NCBI GenBank assembly: GCA_903899985.1 | Contig: CAIULL010000164.1 | Span: 1-64,000, forward strand | Length of the DNA stretch: 64,000 nt | Direction of reading: 5' to 3' | Source of the DNA: an uncultured Schlesneria sp. | GTDB lineage: Bacteria > Planctomycetota > Planctomycetia > Planctomycetales > Planctomycetaceae | Shown: positions 1 to 60,748 of the stretch, piece by piece | How the letters are laid out: each line of letters opens with the position of its first letter | How positions within the stretch are numbered: the stretch's first letter is position 1 | Notes under the pieces: generated by a model | Seen by the model: the letters and a program-made list of their open reading frames with translations, nothing else | Told to the model about the DNA's origin: nothing | The model's database searches: none | Made by a program: the position numbers and the translations under genes

Positions 1-697
1 AAGTTGGCCGAGTTCCTATTTTCATAGGCTTTCGTGAGGTTCGAAGTTGGCCAACTTCGTCAACTTGACCAAAACCATTCAGGCTCTCACGATCTTCTGA
101 AGAGCGAGACACCACCTCAAGTCACCTTTCCGTCACGTCTGAAATTCGCAGGGTAGCGTCGAGTCTCCGTGCCCCACCAAAACCCGAAAAAAACGAGTTG
201 GCAAAGTTGGTCAAGTTGGCCGAGTTCCTTTTTTCATAGACTTTTGTGAGGTTCGAAGTTGGCCAACTTCGTCAACGTGATCAAAACCATTCAGGTGCTC
301 ACGATCTTCTGAAGAGAGTGACTCAACCCAATCCACCTTTACGTCACGTCTGAAATTCGCAGGGTGGCGTCGAGTCTTCGAGCCCCACCAAAACCCCGAA
401 AAAAACAAGTTGGTAAAGTTGGCCGAGTTCCTATTTTCATTGGCTTTTGTGAGGTTCGAAGTTGGCCAACTTCGTCAACGTGATCAGAACCATTCAGGTT
501 CTCACGATCTTCTGAAGAGAGAGACTCAACCCAATCCACCTTTCCGCCACGTCTGAAATTCGCAGGGTGGCGTCGAGTCTTAGAGCCCCACAAAACCCCG
601 ACAAAAAAGAGTTGGCAAAGTTGGTCAAGTTGGCCGAGTTCCTATTTTCATAGGCTTTCGTGAGGTTCGAAGTTGGCCAACTTCGTCAACGTGATCC
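1..697. repeat. Tandem satellite, ~3.3 copies of a 203-212 bp unit
   Basis: Each unit opens with AAGTTGGCCGAGTTCC (at 1, 213, 416 and 627), followed by a conserved 18-bp perfect palindrome CGAAGTTGGCCAACTTCG (42-59, 254-271, 457-474, 668-685), and then about 140 bp of related unique sequence with a GTTGGCAAAGTTGGTC tail. Unit lengths are 212, 203 and 211 bp, not multiples of three, so a shared reading frame is not kept and coding is unlikely. The array starts at or before the left edge of the window, so its full size is unknown. Confidence 0.9.
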
Positions 698-837
698 GTG
701 GTGACAGCACCCCGACAGCGATGAAAAGGACTTTCTCAACGATCGCGATTTTCTTCACTTCGTTACCTTTGTGTCCTTTTGTTCACGAATCTTTTCTTCG
801 GATTTGCCATCATCCGGCCGTTGTGATATCTGCTGTC

Positions 838-7340: not shown

Positions 7341-7387
7341 GAATCACCGATCAGCCGGGCTGTCCCTTTATCTCTTCCGTATGTTCT

Positions 7388-7484
7388 GGGGTCGGGCGTT
7401 CAAATTTCAAAATTGGCCAGACAGGTTCCTCGGCTCTTAATCTTGGTCACAAGGCAATTTTTGAAATTTGAACACCCGACCCCC
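7388..7484. repeat. ~97-bp palindromic element, family A copy 1
   Basis: Begins GGGGTCGGGCGTTCAAATTT CAAAATTGGCC and ends with the near-perfect inverse CAATTTTTGAAATTTGAACA CCCGACCCC. About 30-bp terminal inverted repeats flank a ~36-bp variable centre. Further copies lie at 26965-27061, 60373-60467 and 60645-60740. This copy is between the amidohydrolase gene end and alkB. Confidence 0.9.
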
Positions 7485-7487
7485 TCT

Positions 7488-9233
7488 TCAATCGGCTGCA
7501 AAAACACGTCGACCTCCGACGTACGTTTCGCTGACCGACATGTCCCTGAGTTCCTCCAGCGAACATGTCAGAAGGTCTGACTTCAACACGACAAAGTCGG
7601 CCAGCTTGCCTCGTTCGAGAGATCCCTTTTGCCGCTCCTCAAACGTCAGCCAGGCGTTGTTGATCGTGTACAGCCTCAACATCTGTTCGCGAGTCAGTGC
7701 CTGCTCCAGATGCAGCGGCTGGTCTGTCCGGCGAGGTTGTCGGGTCAGCACCGTCCACATCCCCAGGAAGGGATTGTAGGGATTAACCGACCGCAGGCTG
7801 CCGATCCGTTGCATGTGGTCGGAACCTCCGCCGATGATCACTCCGTGATCGAACAGAGTTTTATACGGCTGGAAGTACGCCAGGCGTTCGTCACCAAACT
7901 GCTTTCGTAATGTCGCTCCATCCAGCCACAGCCATGCGGGTTGCAGGTCGGCGACGATCCCCAGCTGCTTCATTTGCTGAATCGCTTCAAGACTCATGAA
8001 ATTGCAATGAGTGATACAGGGCCGACATCGCTTGACCGGAAGCTCTTTATTGATTTCCGCATAGGCATCAATCAACGCCTGAACGGCTCCGTCGCCAACG
8101 GAGTGTGCTGTGAACTGAAGGTCTCGTTGAAGAGCGGACTTTGCCATCTGAACCAGGTTTTCCTGCTCGATGAAGCGAATGCCGCGATAGTCGGGATCGG
8201 TGATCGAATAGATGCTGCTCACCCCCCACGGAGTTTTCAGATAGGCACTCCCTGTCAGCATCCCTCCGTCGAGAAAGACTTTGATCCCCCTCAGCCACAG
8301 CATCGAATTGTATTCATGCAGCGGATGTTTTGAGGCTTTTTCGATTCCCTTCAGTGCTTCTTCCAGCCGACCGCCCCCTTCGACGGAATACGAAAGAAAG
8401 ACGCGGCAGTTCAGTTCACCCCGTCGCTTCAATTCTGAATAGGCTTCAATCCCCTCATCTTTGGCTGCGCGATCGGCGACACTGGTCAGGCCCACTGCGT
8501 TATAGTCGGCAAACAGTTGCTTCAGTCGCTGCATCCGTTCTTCAACGGTCGGCGATTTCTCGTTCGGCTTTGACTTCACGAACCGGGAGGCATTGCGAAG
8601 GATGCCGGTTAATTCACCGGTCACCGGATCACGCTCGATCTTTCCCGCCTGACCATCGGTAATCTGAAAATCTTTATCGATTCCGCTGAGTTCTAAAGCG
8701 AGCGAATTACAGACGCAGTCGGGACCGGTGCTGAACATCACGGGGTTCTTCGGTGAGACCGCATCGAATTCTTTTCGAGTCGGATAACGCTGATCCCGCA
8801 GTCGCGTGATGAAGACTTGCCGGACGACAATCCATTCGCCGTCAGGTAACAATTCCGCCCGCGCTGCCACGTACTTCAGCACATCGGCGACGGTGTCCAT
8901 TTCAGGAACCGGATGGTCGAACTCATACATCGAAGCGGCCGGAGCATGGACGTGAGAATCGCATAAGCCCGGAATGACCGTGTGACCATGCAGATCAACA
9001 ATAACCGTCTTAGGCCCGGCCAATTTCAGGATGTCATCATTTGTGCCGACATCCTGTATCCGATCACCTCGTACGGCGATCGCCTGGGCAATCGAGAAGG
9101 CGGGATCAACAGTGACGATTTTTCCGTGATGGAAAATCGTGTCCGGCTGTGCGATGGCCTGTGATGATGCGAGCAAGAGGATCAATAACGGGAGGGCGAG
9201 GCTCCTGCCGAGCCGCGAAGTAGGTACACGCAT
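7488..9233 (-). CDS. Secreted amidohydrolase (YtcJ-like)
   Basis: About 581 residues from the ATG at 9233; the frame stays open to 9386, so the start is uncertain. With this start the protein has a signal peptide MRVPTSRLGRSLALPLLILL..AIAQ. The metal-dependent hydrolase barrel is shown by DSHVH (first metal site), FLDGG, TAHSVGDGA, THCNF and GGSDHM, in the order typical of the YtcJ/Amidohydro_3 group, whose substrates are mostly unknown. N- and C-terminal small beta-sandwich segments (DTIFHHGKIVTVD; GKLADFVVL) are present. Odd: a 78-bp palindromic repeat shared with another site in the window encodes, in frame, 26 residues including this start and the signal-peptide n-region. Function on a cyclic amide or similar in the periplasm is inferred. 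Confidence 0.85.
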   Translation of the reverse strand: MRVPTSRLGRSLALPLLILLLASSQAIAQPDTIFHHGKIVTVDPAFSIAQAIAVRGDRIQDVGTNDDILKLAGPKTVIVDLHGHTVIPGLCDSHVHAPAASMYEFDHPVPEMDTVADVLKYVAARAELLPDGEWIVVRQVFITRLRDQRYPTRKEFDAVSPKNPVMFSTGPDCVCNSLALELSGIDKDFQITDGQAGKIERDPVTGELTGILRNASRFVKSKPNEKSPTVEERMQRLKQLFADYNAVGLTSVADRAAKDEGIEAYSELKRRGELNCRVFLSYSVEGGGRLEEALKGIEKASKHPLHEYNSMLWLRGIKVFLDGGMLTGSAYLKTPWGVSSIYSITDPDYRGIRFIEQENLVQMAKSALQRDLQFTAHSVGDGAVQALIDAYAEINKELPVKRCRPCITHCNFMSLEAIQQMKQLGIVADLQPAWLWLDGATLRKQFGDERLAYFQPYKTLFDHGVIIGGGSDHMQRIGSLRSVNPYNPFLGMWTVLTRQPRRTDQPLHLEQALTREQMLRLYTINNAWLTFEERQKGSLERGKLADFVVLKSDLLTCSLEELRDMSVSETYVGGRRVFAAD

Positions 9234-9267
9234 CGACTTAACGGCTCGGCGGGAGCCTCGCCCTCCC
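9190..9267. repeat. 78-bp palindromic element, copy 1 (inside coding frame)
   Basis: GGGAGGGCGAGGCTCCTGCC GAGCCG at one end is the inverse of CGGCTCGGCGGGAGCCTCGC CCTCCC at the other. It is the same length as the copy at 36034-36111. Exactly 26 codons long, it is open in the amidohydrolase frame. Confidence 0.9.
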
Positions 9268-9462
9268 ATTTGGTTTCGGGCAGTGACGACACCCAGGGAC
9301 CAGTATTCTCTCGAAGACAAATGCTTCATAGCGCAGCCTATACTGGTTCTACGTTCCTTGCACGAGCGATCATTCACGACGCACAATATCCAGGCAAATT
9401 CCTAGGGCAAAGGCCCGTTAACCACTGCCGCAGGGGCAGTGGGGTTGGGACTTTGTAAAAGC

Positions 9463-15750: not shown

Positions 15751-18116
15751 TTGAGATATTTTTCCTGGCGGCGATCGTCATATTGCCAATCTACCTCACT
15801 CTTAAAGCGTGGCGATGGTCTGCGTCAACTTCGAAGATCAATGGAAAAGCTCCCTGGTCAGTCAACTTGGTTGAAGCATCGACACTGGCGATCCTCACGA
15901 GCGTGATGGTGATTCATGTGGCGTCAGGGGGAACGGGATTGGTAACAAGCCCTTTGCAAGAATTCATTATCCGCGAACGAATCCTGGCCTGTGCGATCAT
16001 GATTGCTGTTGCAGGGTGCTGGATTCTTCTGGGCCTTTGGAAATCGATTTCACTCGCGGCTGTGGGCATGCTCATCTCGATATCGATGGCGATGACCTTT
16101 GCCAGCGCAAAGCCCGTGTACGAACGCTTCGAGAAAGAGATCCGGCAGATCCCCGTTCCGATTGAATTTACCATCCGGGAAGAAATCGACGAAATCGACG
16201 TCGTGATCAATGGAGTTCAAATGGGGAAGGCACCGCTGCACACAACGATCGACGAGCTTGAGAAGAAAGCCCCACCGATTGAGGTCCCAAAGGACGAATA
16301 CAGCAAAGGCTGGAAAAACTTTGGAAATTCAACCTATCTGCCACGAGCAAAGACCCGACTCGACCGTGCGGATCGCGTTGGGATTCGTGGAGACCGTGAA
16401 AAATCCGAACCAATGGAACTTTATGTTCAATTAGAGCGGCATGGTCAACCAGTCATGATCTCCGGCAGTTTGGGACATTCTGGCCCGTCACGGATGTTCG
16501 GGAATATTCAACCAGCAATACTTCCGCTGGGCGTCATGACGGAAGAATGGCATCGCGATACCACAATATTATTGGAAAAAGCCCGACTGATGGATTACAG
16601 AGTTGATGCCGACTGGATCAGTGCTGCAGACACACATTTCCATTTTGTCCGCAACGCACTGATTGCGGCAATTCCGAAAGAACCCCAATTTCGGCAGGTG
16701 CTGACCGACTGGGCAAAAGCTCGCTATCATCTGGAGCAGGTCACCGACATGGTCAGTGCCTGGAGTGCATTGGAAAGGATTCAGGCACAGGTCAACAAAG
16801 CCGGTGCCTATCAGACAAACTCCATTACGGGTGAAGCGGTCGAATACCTGATCGATCACCTCGATTCAGATCGGGTGATTGCGATCGCAAAAACAAAACT
16901 GAAAAGCCTACCAACCATCAGTGCTGGCGGGTTCGGTTATGGATGGGGCAGTGAACTGGGCAAACCTTGTTTCTCGACATCGTTCCTGACACCTCAGACA
17001 GATCGAAAGCCGAGTGACTTCGTGATGGCGCATGTGATCTGGAAACTCGATCAGAAATGGGACAGTGAGTCGGACGACCAGGATAACCCGGTCGAAAAAG
17101 AAATTGTTCCGGAACTGATCAGACTCAGTTACCTCGATCCGCAGGCAATGAAACTGGCAACCGTCCTGGGTGGTTCTACGTTGAATGAGTTTAACCGTCG
17201 ACAACAACGTCAGGTGTACTCATTCAAAGAGAGCAGCGACCCGATGCAGAATGAGTATATCGAGGGTCAATACGTCTCGCGCGACTTCTGGCAATCACTC
17301 AACGCCGTTGGTCCCGCAGGTGCGAAATTCCGCAAAGAACATTCGTACCAGGCATTAGAGCTGGCCGAACAGTTCCTGAACAAATCGTTTTCACTGACGT
17401 CATTACCAAACTGGACAGACTTTCTTTTCCTGGAAGTGGAAGGCCGCGAACCGCTGGCTCGCAATTTCTGGAAATCGTTTCGCGATAAGGTTGAGGCCGA
17501 TAAAACCCACCGGCCTTGGGCGCTGGGTGTGTTGTGGAGCTACCTGGCCCGGATTCGGCCAATGCCGCCAGCGTCCGACTTTGTCGCGGCGTTTCCAAAA
17601 AAGTCGCCCTCCTACGGTGATTTTGGAAATCCCGAACAAACTCTTTCACTGCTTCCCGTCGACCTTCGTCTACAAGTCACACAAGATTGCATTGCTGAAG
17701 CGGTGAGAGGGAAATCGATCCTTCAGCCCAATTCTGAGCCCTACGGTGCCTTCAATCAGATTGAAAATCAACTCATTCGGTATATTCCATCGATTCCATC
17801 TGACGCGGCGGCTGATGTCGCGATGCAATCTCTGGAAAAGACAAACCCGAAATCGACAGAAGTCAGCAGGCTATTGAAAGATCAGGGGACCTATGGCCAA
17901 CTGACGGGCCACATGCTGGCCCGGCTGGCGACATCGTCCGACCCCGAACATCGCCATTGGGTGATCCCTCAAATCAAAATCCTTCCGAACTCAGAAAACC
18001 GCGATACTCTGGCTCGCCTGCTGAACGACGAAGATCCCTCGGTCCGTGAATCCGCCGAAAAAGTCGCTGCAGAATTGGAGGAACTTCGTCGACTTCCGTA
18101 CCCGAAACTGAAATGA
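15747..18116 (+). CDS. Large membrane-anchored protein of the ABC operon
   Basis: 789 residues from the ATG that overlaps the previous stop. Residues 1-~125 contain four membrane helices; the remaining ~660 residues are soluble and mostly helical, ending in a HEAT-like segment (LARLLNDEDPSVRESAEKVAAELEEL). No catalytic motif is visible. It is the third gene of a regulator-ATPase-permease operon, so it may be a partner or second membrane subunit, but I do not recognise the family. The soluble part probably includes helical repeats. Confidence 0.75.
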   Translation: MIEIFFLAAIVILPIYLTLKAWRWSASTSKINGKAPWSVNLVEASTLAILTSVMVIHVASGGTGLVTSPLQEFIIRERILACAIMIAVAGCWILLGLWKSISLAAVGMLISISMAMTFASAKPVYERFEKEIRQIPVPIEFTIREEIDEIDVVINGVQMGKAPLHTTIDELEKKAPPIEVPKDEYSKGWKNFGNSTYLPRAKTRLDRADRVGIRGDREKSEPMELYVQLERHGQPVMISGSLGHSGPSRMFGNIQPAILPLGVMTEEWHRDTTILLEKARLMDYRVDADWISAADTHFHFVRNALIAAIPKEPQFRQVLTDWAKARYHLEQVTDMVSAWSALERIQAQVNKAGAYQTNSITGEAVEYLIDHLDSDRVIAIAKTKLKSLPTISAGGFGYGWGSELGKPCFSTSFLTPQTDRKPSDFVMAHVIWKLDQKWDSESDDQDNPVEKEIVPELIRLSYLDPQAMKLATVLGGSTLNEFNRRQQRQVYSFKESSDPMQNEYIEGQYVSRDFWQSLNAVGPAGAKFRKEHSYQALELAEQFLNKSFSLTSLPNWTDFLFLEVEGREPLARNFWKSFRDKVEADKTHRPWALGVLWSYLARIRPMPPASDFVAAFPKKSPSYGDFGNPEQTLSLLPVDLRLQVTQDCIAEAVRGKSILQPNSEPYGAFNQIENQLIRYIPSIPSDAAADVAMQSLEKTNPKSTEVSRLLKDQGTYGQLTGHMLARLATSSDPEHRHWVIPQIKILPNSENRDTLARLLNDEDPSVRESAEKVAAELEELRRLPYPKLK

Positions 18117-18634: not shown

Positions 18635-18734
18635 TGTGCCACTGAATGACCGTCTTCGGTCACTCAGTGTCTTTCAATTGCGTGTTTAGATGGCGAAGAC
18701 ACTGCGTCGGAGAAGACTCCGATGCAGTGGCACA
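18635..18734. repeat. BIME-like ~100-bp element, copy 1
   Basis: Starts TGTGCCACTG and ends CAGTGGCACA. Two hairpins, one at each end (TGACCGTCTTCGGTCA and CGGAGAAGACTCCG), enclose a short spacer. The same structure occurs at 23097-23194 and, decayed, at 21596-21692. It lies between two convergent genes. Confidence 0.9.
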
Positions 18735-18748
18735 AGACGTCAAAGCAA

Positions 18749-23056: not shown

Positions 23057-23096
23057 AATTCGCCGACATCGGCATCAGCAATCAAAGCGAGAAAAT

Positions 23097-23194
23097 TGTG
23101 CCACTGCATCGGAGTCTTCGGAGACGCAGTGTCTTCTGTTTTTTGAGACAATCAAAAAGCACTGCTTGACGGAAGACCGTCAAGCAGTGGCACA
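23097..23194. repeat. BIME-like ~100-bp element, copy 2
   Basis: TGTGCCACTGCATCGGAGTC TTC ... CAAGCAGTGGCACA. Two hairpins (CGGAGTCTTCGGAG; CTTGACGGAAGACCGTCAAG) back to back, same ends as copy 1. Lies between convergent genes. Confidence 0.9.
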
Positions 23195-26964: not shown

Positions 26965-27061
26965 GGGGTCGGGCGTTCCCATTTCAAAATTGGCCCAATG
27001 GATCACATTGTCATTGCAAATCGCGTGACTGGCTAATTTTGAAATTTGAACACCCGACCCC
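26965..27061. repeat. ~97-bp palindromic element, family A copy 2
   Basis: GGGGGTCGGGCGTTCCCATT TCAAAATTGGCC ... GCTAATTTTGAAATTTGAAC ACCCGACCCC. Same ends as copies at 7388, 60373 and 60645. Between convergent dus and rpe. Confidence 0.9.
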
Positions 27062-27070
27062 GCAACCTGC

Positions 27071-34919: not shown

Positions 34920-35993
34920 ATGGAAATGCTGACAGAAACTGAGTTGCTGCAACGAATCCGCGTCCTGAAAGACCCTGAAATTGGCCGGACTCTGCAAGAA
35001 CTCGATATGCTGAAAGGGGTTCGTCTCAGCGGCAACGTCCTGAAGGTCAGTATCGAACTTCCAACTCATGCTTATCCCCGGCGAGAACGAATCACCGAGG
35101 CCATCCGGTCTGCTGCACAACAAGGAAATTCAGAACTCGGAACGGTTGACGTCGAATTCAGTGCCGTTGTTCGAGGCAGTATGTCGGGTGGTGCGATCGG
35201 CCTGAGAGCCAAGAATGTGATCGCTGTCGGAAGTGGCAAAGGGGGCGTGGGTAAAAGTACCGTGGCAGCGTCACTTGCTTACGGTCTGAAGACCCTTGGC
35301 TCCAAGGTTGGACTGATGGATGCCGACGTCTATGGACCAAGCATCCCACACATGGTTGGTTCGATCGATCGCCCCACTGCCATGAAAGTGACCACGGAAT
35401 CTGGCGAGGAAATCGAGCGAATCCAGCCCGCTATGGTTGACGGTATCAAAGTGATCTCGATGGGTTACTTCCTGAAGCCCGATCAGGCGGTCATCTGGCG
35501 CGGCCCCCTGCTCCATCGCGCAATCACACAATTCCTGAAAGATACCGATTGGGGTGAACTGGATTACCTGATCATCGATCTGCCCCCCGGTACGGGCGAT
35601 GTTTCGTTGACGTTGTCTCAACTGCTCGGACTGGCTGGCGCTGTCGTCGTCTGCACGCCACAACAGGTTGCCTTGCTCGACGCCATCAAGGCCATCAGCA
35701 TGTTCAACCAAGTGAAGATTCCGCTGCTCGGCATTGTGGAAAACATGACGGGCGAAATCTTTGGGCGAGGTGGAGCCAAGTCGAAAGCGGAAGAGCTTGG
35801 CGTCCCGTTCCTGGGTGAATTGCCAATTGAAGTTGGCATCCGCATGCGAGGCGATGCCGGACGTATTGCAACGCTCTTTTCCGAAGAGAATCCTTCACGG
35901 GCGCCACTCATCAACATCTGTGAGCAAGTCGCGATGCAGGTGGCGAAGCAATTACTGATTGCGCCAAAAATGCCCACGCTCGAGATTCTTTGA
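34920..35993 (+). CDS. mrp: Mrp/NBP35-type ATPase, Fe-S carrier family
   Basis: 357 residues. Residues 1-~95 form the MIP18-like DUF59 domain (ELLQRIRVLKDPEIGRTLQELDMLKGVRL), then a P-loop with deviant Walker A GSGKGGVGKST (Gly104-Thr114, Lys112), LMDADVYGPSIPHM, IDLPPGTGDVSLTL. Homologues carry and transfer iron-sulfur clusters. Odd: between IVENMT and FGRGG the usual CxxC cluster-binding pair is missing, so it may bind a cluster differently or not at all. Confidence 0.88.
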   Translation: MEMLTETELLQRIRVLKDPEIGRTLQELDMLKGVRLSGNVLKVSIELPTHAYPRRERITEAIRSAAQQGNSELGTVDVEFSAVVRGSMSGGAIGLRAKNVIAVGSGKGGVGKSTVAASLAYGLKTLGSKVGLMDADVYGPSIPHMVGSIDRPTAMKVTTESGEEIERIQPAMVDGIKVISMGYFLKPDQAVIWRGPLLHRAITQFLKDTDWGELDYLIIDLPPGTGDVSLTLSQLLGLAGAVVVCTPQQVALLDAIKAISMFNQVKIPLLGIVENMTGEIFGRGGAKSKAEELGVPFLGELPIEVGIRMRGDAGRIATLFSEENPSRAPLINICEQVAMQVAKQLLIAPKMPTLEIL

Positions 35994-36033: not shown

Positions 36034-36111
36034 GGGAGGGCGAGGCTCCCGCTGAGCCGCGAAGTGAGTTCGTGTACCCGCTTCGGGGCTCAGCAGGAGC
36101 TTCGCCCTCCC
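36034..36111. repeat. 78-bp palindromic element, copy 2
   Basis: GGGAGGGCGAGGCTCCCGCT GAGCCG ... GGGGCTCAGCAGGAGCTTCG CCCTCCC. Same length and ends as 9190-9267. Between the convergent Mrp and GspE-like genes. Confidence 0.9.
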
Positions 36112-60292: not shown

Positions 60293-60372
60293 TCCACAAA
60301 CCCTTGCTCAACGAATATCTGATTTGATTGTCTCGTTAAGGCATTGTAGGAAAATCGGCGCGTTTCGAAGAG

Positions 60373-60467
60373 GGGGTCGGGTGTTCAAATTTTAAAATTG
60401 GTGATTGTCCGATCCTCATTTTGAAAATCGGTCGATTCGCAGATTTTGAATTTTGAACGCCCGACCT
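60373..60467. repeat. ~95-bp palindromic element, family A copy 3
   Basis: GGGGGTCGGGTGTTCAAATT ... TTTTGAATTTTGAACGCCCG ACC, related to 7388-7484. A second copy of the family lies 180 bp further on. Confidence 0.85.
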
Positions 60468-60644
60468 CGCCAGAGGGTACCTCGATCGCGAAAACTGCCG
60501 CCAGAGGCACACCGTCACGACCCTTAATGCTTAGGGCTTTTGCACCTCAAATGAAGAAGGCTTCGATCCCTTTTTACGTTTTACTCCGAAGTCGAGCGAC
60601 GACAAATCGCGACCTGATCAGGAAAATCGTGAGGTTTTGAAGAG

Positions 60645-60740
60645 GGGTTCGGGTGTTCAAATTTCAAAATTGGCCAAATTAGCGATTCTCAAAATTGCGT
60701 CCAGACGACGGCGAATTTTGAAATTTGAACGCCCGACCCC
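60645..60740. repeat. ~96-bp palindromic element, family A copy 4
   Basis: GGGGTTCGGGTGTTCAAATT TCAAAATTGGCC ... GCGAATTTTGAAATTTGAAC GCCCGACCCC. The region 60468-60644 between copies 3 and 4 holds no gene. All of 60293-60748 is gene-free apart from these repeats. Confidence 0.9.
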
Positions 60741-60748
60741 AGAGCCGC

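Follow-up and report, generated by a model that had tools for sequence, protein, structure and literature searches.

In one Schlesneria-like species, the front of the leader of an amidohydrolase gene is, as judged from alignment with its relatives, replaced by a palindromic repeat, with the hydrophobic core and the cleavage region kept. The explanation that we favour, and consider rather probable, is that a composite, REP/MITE-like repeat landed at the 5' end of this exported amidohydrolase gene and replaced the front of its leader; a RAYT transposase probably mobilises the family in trans, or did so formerly. Translation would now begin at one of two repeat-derived ATGs, 9233 or, bordering the core, 9269; the repeat would encode a new basic n-region, MRVPTSRLGRSLALP, with three arginines, ahead of the retained hydrophobic core, and export of the enzyme would continue. 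The window, by which we mean the whole stretch of 64,000 nucleotides that was analysed, lies on contig 164 of a draft assembly of 8.0 Mb in 296 contigs (genome G000).

The repeat at the front of the amidohydrolase gene

The amidohydrolase gene (Amidohydro_3; PF07969, E 1.5e-77) lies downstream of the repeat at 7488..9188 on the minus strand. Its frame is open back to a TTG at 9386, the palindrome at 9190-9267 included, and its leader is signal-peptide-like. The 78-bp core palindrome (9190..9267, minus strand) encodes GGRGSRRAVKSMRVPTSRLGRSLALP within this frame, and the position in the frame and the translation given by the earlier note both held on the minus-strand reading, which across the repeat runs NQ-MGGRGSRRAVKSMRVPTSRLGRSLALP-LLILLLASSQAIA. 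The inverted-repeat arms measure 35 nt each (9187-9221 and 9236-9270) with a complementarity of 89%. The predicted RNA fold of the palindrome reached -67.5 kcal/mol (z -10.6), and 0 of 200 shuffles folded equally well. When the genome was searched with the arm pattern, allowing at most 3 mismatches, there were 130 matches, and none for the reversed-pattern control. Arms, fold and matches together bear out the 78-bp palindromic repeat that had been described at 9190-9267.

The repeat is longer than had been thought. Positions 9268-9281 equal the right flank of the family, ATTGGGTTGCGGGC, at 12 of 14 positions, and CCAGG follows at 9293-9297. The right flank of the composite repeat was placed at 9268..9297 on the minus strand (end approximate), upstream of the core in the direction of the gene. 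A 12/14 match to the flank had a frequency of 5e-6 among 200,000 random 14-mers, with two orientations tried per copy. The left family flank was not present at the window copy (8/24 positions), and gene sequence directly abuts the core. Since the right flank matched and the left did not, the repeat-derived DNA spans 9190 to about 9297, and because the composite repeat reaches about 9297, the second candidate start (ATG, 9269-9267) would also be repeat-derived. The window copy differs at 2 positions from the consensus built on 40 full cores, and by this measure the insertion is young. The second core copy that had been reported at 36034 was confirmed (36034..36111); it stands between genes that end at 35993 and 36141, has neither the left nor the right flank, and is 78% identical to the window core in direct and 85% in inverted comparison.

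To compare the leader with its relatives, we fetched 80 orthologous loci, one of which had too little upstream DNA. In the 79 that were scanned, the repeat was not found within 400 nt upstream with up to 3 substitutions allowed. The orthologues of the three sister genomes (G001, G004 and G005) are 94-96% identical to the window gene, and homology begins about where the repeat ends. Their leaders are MYLRTQSRLACLILLLASTQVIA, MHLRTQSCLLSLILLLATSQVVA and MHLRTRFCLPCIILFLASSQVVA, short leaders of 23 residues with the pattern M(H/Y)LRT..., and in all three AGAGGA or AAAGGA stands a few bases 5' of the ATG. In the window genome the sisters' start, their Shine-Dalgarno-like site and about ten codons of the n-region are missing, and the repeat stands there instead, in frame. 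In the sisters, the same hydrophobic core and cleavage region, LLILLLASSQAIA (9150..9188, minus strand), is thus preceded by another start and another n-region; this part of the leader is common to the orthologues. The alignment of orthologues that the earlier note had proposed therefore did yield a leader lacking the insert, and its suggestion that the repeat rebuilt the front of the leader is supported. The same leader in a species without the repeat, which would have told against that suggestion, was not seen, as the three closest orthologues differ in start and n-region.

The only closely aligning flank at the window gene is the downstream one. The 90 bases just upstream gave no significant alignment with the three sisters (p 0.51, 0.18 and 0.48). 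Farther upstream, the end of a symporter-like gene aligns in all four genomes, and the intergenic DNA aligns with G001 in an alignment that involves a second repeat family. This second high-copy repeat, at 9360-9446 upstream of the amidohydrolase, gave at least 63 matches in G000, 58 in G001, 48 in G004 and 57 in G005, each figure being a lower bound; among the matches listed, there was none at E 0.001 from the 11 remaining genomes of the genus.

Several further repeats were observed in the window. A third palindromic family, GGGGTCGGGCGTTCAAATTTCAAAATTGGCC, with paired arms 34 nt apart, occurs at 7383-7491, 26965-27066 and 60348-60743; its copy at 7453-7491 shares bases with the amidohydrolase stop codon, so that repeats mark both ends of the gene. 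The inverted repeat pair GAAGACACTGCGTCGGAGAAGACTCCGATGCAGTGGCACAA lies at 18695-18735 and 23096-23136, and by eye G004 and G005 have a stretch resembling it upstream of their amidohydrolase gene. Direct repeats with a spacing of 203-212 nt, up to 93% alike, occupy the left edge of the window (1-742).

Candidate starts and the state of the gene

Three ATG codons on the minus strand are candidate starts. The first (9327..9329) lies in sequence that has no relative among the matches listed. The second (9267..9269) stands at the edge of the core and would be repeat-derived, with the flank giving its AT. The third (9231..9233) falls in the hairpin loop and would give MRVPTSRLGRSLALPLLILLLASSQAIA, a leader of 28 residues. 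The first start codon after the repeat is a TTG that already lies within the hydrophobic core; none precedes it in the intervening bases. The predicted local structure from -35 to +35 was -14.2 kcal/mol for the ATG at 9329, -22.9 for that at 9269 and -38.3 for that at 9233, and ranged from -10.3 to -18.9 kcal/mol for nine orthologue starts in the same interval. By eye, no good Shine-Dalgarno-like site was found before any of the three, 9329 having AGG only. The ATG at 9269 was also considered as the ancestral start and rejected, as the match in G001, CCTGGGTGTCG, was not significant (p 0.48) and its bases belong to the repeat flank.

A repeat-derived start, at 9233 or at 9269, is favoured by us over one at 9329 because the leader from 9233, at 28 residues, is close to the 23 of the sisters. 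Were translation to begin at 9329 (MKHLSSREYW...), the repeat would be translated inside an extended n-region about 47 residues long. We regard this as unlikely, yet as the best placed of the alternatives: the open frame extends past this codon as far back as the TTG at 9386, its predicted local structure is the weakest of the three candidates, and a second gene of G000 on contig C151, described below, seems alike in having a Shine-Dalgarno-like site and a start upstream of an in-frame copy. Against it, 9271-9359 matched only itself among the matches listed in 15 genomes, the codon is without a good Shine-Dalgarno-like site, and the leaders of the sisters are less than half as long.

It is less likely still, and in our judgement improbable, that the insertion crippled the gene, leaving a pseudogene in the making with its start and ribosome-binding site lost and its message in a hairpin. 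The ancestral Shine-Dalgarno-like site and start are indeed lost, the hairpin of -67.5 kcal/mol covers two of the three remaining starts, and the insertion is recent. Yet the frame is intact and keeps an in-frame ATG, dN/dS against the three sister genomes is 0.043-0.060, and there is no acceleration, dN to G001 being 0.030 both for G000 and for G004; the insertion might nevertheless be too recent for decay to be visible. On the evidence of these substitution rates, the amidohydrolase gene is intact and under purifying selection. As the repeat is young, most of this selection on the mature part may have acted before the insertion. With the start at a repeat-derived ATG, expression of the amidohydrolase would perhaps be lower, because the start sits in a very stable hairpin.

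A false join of draft contigs at the repeat is very improbable: many contigs of this 296-contig draft do start or stop near the element, but the gene on the far side is the same in the three sisters and the intergenic DNA aligns with G001, and with gene order kept on both sides such a join is unlikely.

The repeat family, other N-terminal copies and a possible mover

We surveyed the copies of the element in G000 at 71 loci, forming 77 distinct clusters, drawn from the arm matches listed. The core was exactly 78 bp long in 40 of the 77 clusters among these matches. Several copies are composite, with a left flank TTCGCGCGCCGCGAAGATTTTTCG preceded by GTAGTACTAACGTTTTGTTTC and a right flank ATTGGGTTGCGGGC...CCAGG, and others are bare cores. 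A slightly shorter arm pattern was matched in 12 of 15 genomes of the genus and in none of the remaining three; the matches numbered 122 in G000, 105 in G012, 97 in G011, 35 in G001, 29 in G003, 26 each in G004 and G013, 19 in G005, 10 in G008, 6 in G009, 3 in G006 and 1 in G010. The repeat is probably mobile. In G000, an arm lies within about 60 bases of a contig end on C23, C30, C63, C80, C102, C120, C130, C140, C165, C171, C225, C243 and C266. Contigs that break at the arms of the element mark it as an assembly breakpoint, and the true copy number is therefore probably higher.

The element is a high-copy palindrome that appears to lie mostly outside genes in the 77 clusters among the matches listed. 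When these were read by eye, long frames mostly touched the element at one end only and started after it. The description of the repeat as intergenic fits many copies in this way, but not all of them, since two other copies in G000 lie in frame in probable leaders. The claim that the core is a multiple of three in length and open in the coding orientation was true but not special, for 5 of the 6 frames of the consensus core lack a stop; the keeping of the frame was for the same reason rejected as evidence of selection. The full-length cores were open in the frame of the window in 29 of 40 cases as stored and in 30 of 40 when all were turned one way. In that single orientation an in-frame ATG was open to the end of the core in 30 of the 40.

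For the 77 clusters, we read the frames that run from the element into at least 100 downstream codons, and compared two of those that by eye had no plausible start after the element with their orthologues. One (C113) is a PHA-depolymerase-like protein (NF050058) with 50 extra codons relative to G001, G004 and G005, between parts found in all three; the corresponding 150 nt were taken from the alignment together with the translations, and the sisters are without the element. There is no ATG, GTG or TTG from the element to its hydrophobic core, and the basic stretch before that core, RRNSSRRGKKQ, is the left flank of the repeat. The other (C151) is a frame of 4505 codons in which a copy with one well-kept arm stands in the n-region between MSSLRFEWLIQRR and GFRWLTLCC. 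Here too the flanks of the copy are homologous to the three sisters, which have no element. The start, AGGAGG...GTGATG, lies upstream of the element; G000, G004 and G005 agree in it letter for letter, and G001 keeps the GTG but has AGA for the ATG. Both proteins carry probable signal peptides. The genome search for other in-frame copies thus found two in probable leaders, but both are read in another frame than that of the window and have no ATG of the window kind.

Three genes of G000 with probable signal peptides carry the repeat before a hydrophobic segment. A repeat landing there could provide the front of such a leader by different routes: in the frame of the window gene, 30 of 40 copies have a core ATG with a basic stretch like MRVPTSRLGRSLAL after it, and in another frame the left flank gives the basic RRNSSRRGKKQ. 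That the repeat is a portable leader cassette, a RAYT-linked and recurrent source of new secretion signals, nevertheless seems doubtful to us. When 150 genomes of the family were searched with the 41-residue leader of the window gene, 21 had matches, its own genome included. No second leader built in the frame of the window was found in the 150 genomes, and by eye none of the 12 match loci read had a hydrophobic core right after the element.

An old copy of the repeat was also seen at the N-terminus of a gene, acyltransferase-like by eye, in G004 (L306, about 1950-2090, on G004:C162) and G001 (L311, on G001:C83), with a remnant in G005 and no copy in G000. From the sequence, the acyltransferase of G004 and G001 may start inside the repeat. 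Between these two genomes, the repeat-derived N-terminal codons showed pN 0.183 and pS 0.129, with no purifying selection, and the first 150 codons of the conserved part showed pN 0.074 and pS 0.471. The pN of 0.183 against a pS of 0.129 indicates that the repeat-derived N-terminus of the acyltransferase is unconstrained or untranslated.

A gene for a RAYT, a REP-associated tyrosine transposase, on contig C295 (17001-17477; NF047646, 84.4 bits against a cut-off of 80) is flanked by repeat arms in opposite orientation at 16826 and 17592, with one recognisable arm per copy. Elsewhere in the genus the match with the highest score shares 32% identity with it, and short stretches reach 43%. Fetched flanks of up to about 1.5 kb around 11 other Y1_Tnp matches of G000 contained no element, and neither did those of 22 further loci, 21 of them from other genomes of the genus. 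In a set of 30 RAYT loci from six genomes, drawn from 66 matches in total and overlapping the 11 and 22 loci above, the C295 gene was the only one with the element nearby (1/30). The arrangement at C295 is suggestive of a link between this RAYT and the movement of the repeat.

Relation to known elements and meaning

In-frame palindromic repeats as such are already known. PMC10969869 describes RPEs as palindromic repeats of about 150 bp that form in-frame fusions with protein genes, and according to PMC3733652 R. conorii expresses RPE-1 proteins decorated at the N-terminus. The Rickettsia palindromic elements share with the present family the in-frame palindrome in genes, and the insert of C113 also measures 150 nt; as with those elements, the inserts of C113 and C151 have flanks homologous to three sisters without the element. 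As differences, the repeat here takes the place of the start and n-region of a leader, a RAYT stands beside copies, and the host belongs to the Planctomycetota. MITEs, non-autonomous inverted-repeat elements able to fuse with host ORFs according to PMC10969869, are alike in being inverted-repeat elements fused in frame with host ORFs. By eye, no consistent target-site duplication was found in the flanks of 44 copies.

The REP/BIME and RAYT systems (TnpA-REP, 'REPtron') have in common with the present family many palindromic copies and a RAYT of NF047646 between opposite arms. REPs are given lengths of 20-40 bp in PMC3733652 and of 21-65 nt in PMC6006769, whereas the core here has 78 bp; copies lie near only 1 of 30 RAYT loci; and by eye there is no GT(A/G)G directly at the foot of the core or of the small hairpin. 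In several composites, by eye, a GTAG precedes the left small hairpin by about 20 nt. PMC6006769 places TnpA-like class 3 principally in Planctomycetes and describes classes 2.6 and 3 as without the foot tetranucleotide. REPs have been reported at the NH2 termini of ORFs, and many such copies may be untranslated, according to PMC3733652.

No palindromic repeat that supplies the start of a signal peptide appeared in the literature that we searched by title and abstract opening, a search limited in its words and its collection. As far as searched, the traced replacement of a signal-peptide start and n-region is new, as is a core whose ATG begins, in 30 of 40 copies, a frame without a stop up to the end of the core. 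The amidohydrolase offers a before-and-after case, with sisters that have the old leader and one genome with a leader built by the repeat, from a palindrome that is probably mobile. DNA that looks selfish seems to have been turned into part of a protein's export signal. Since the n-regions of signal peptides tolerate change, in-frame repeats may be easily kept there, and the genus provides a natural experiment for whether they are.
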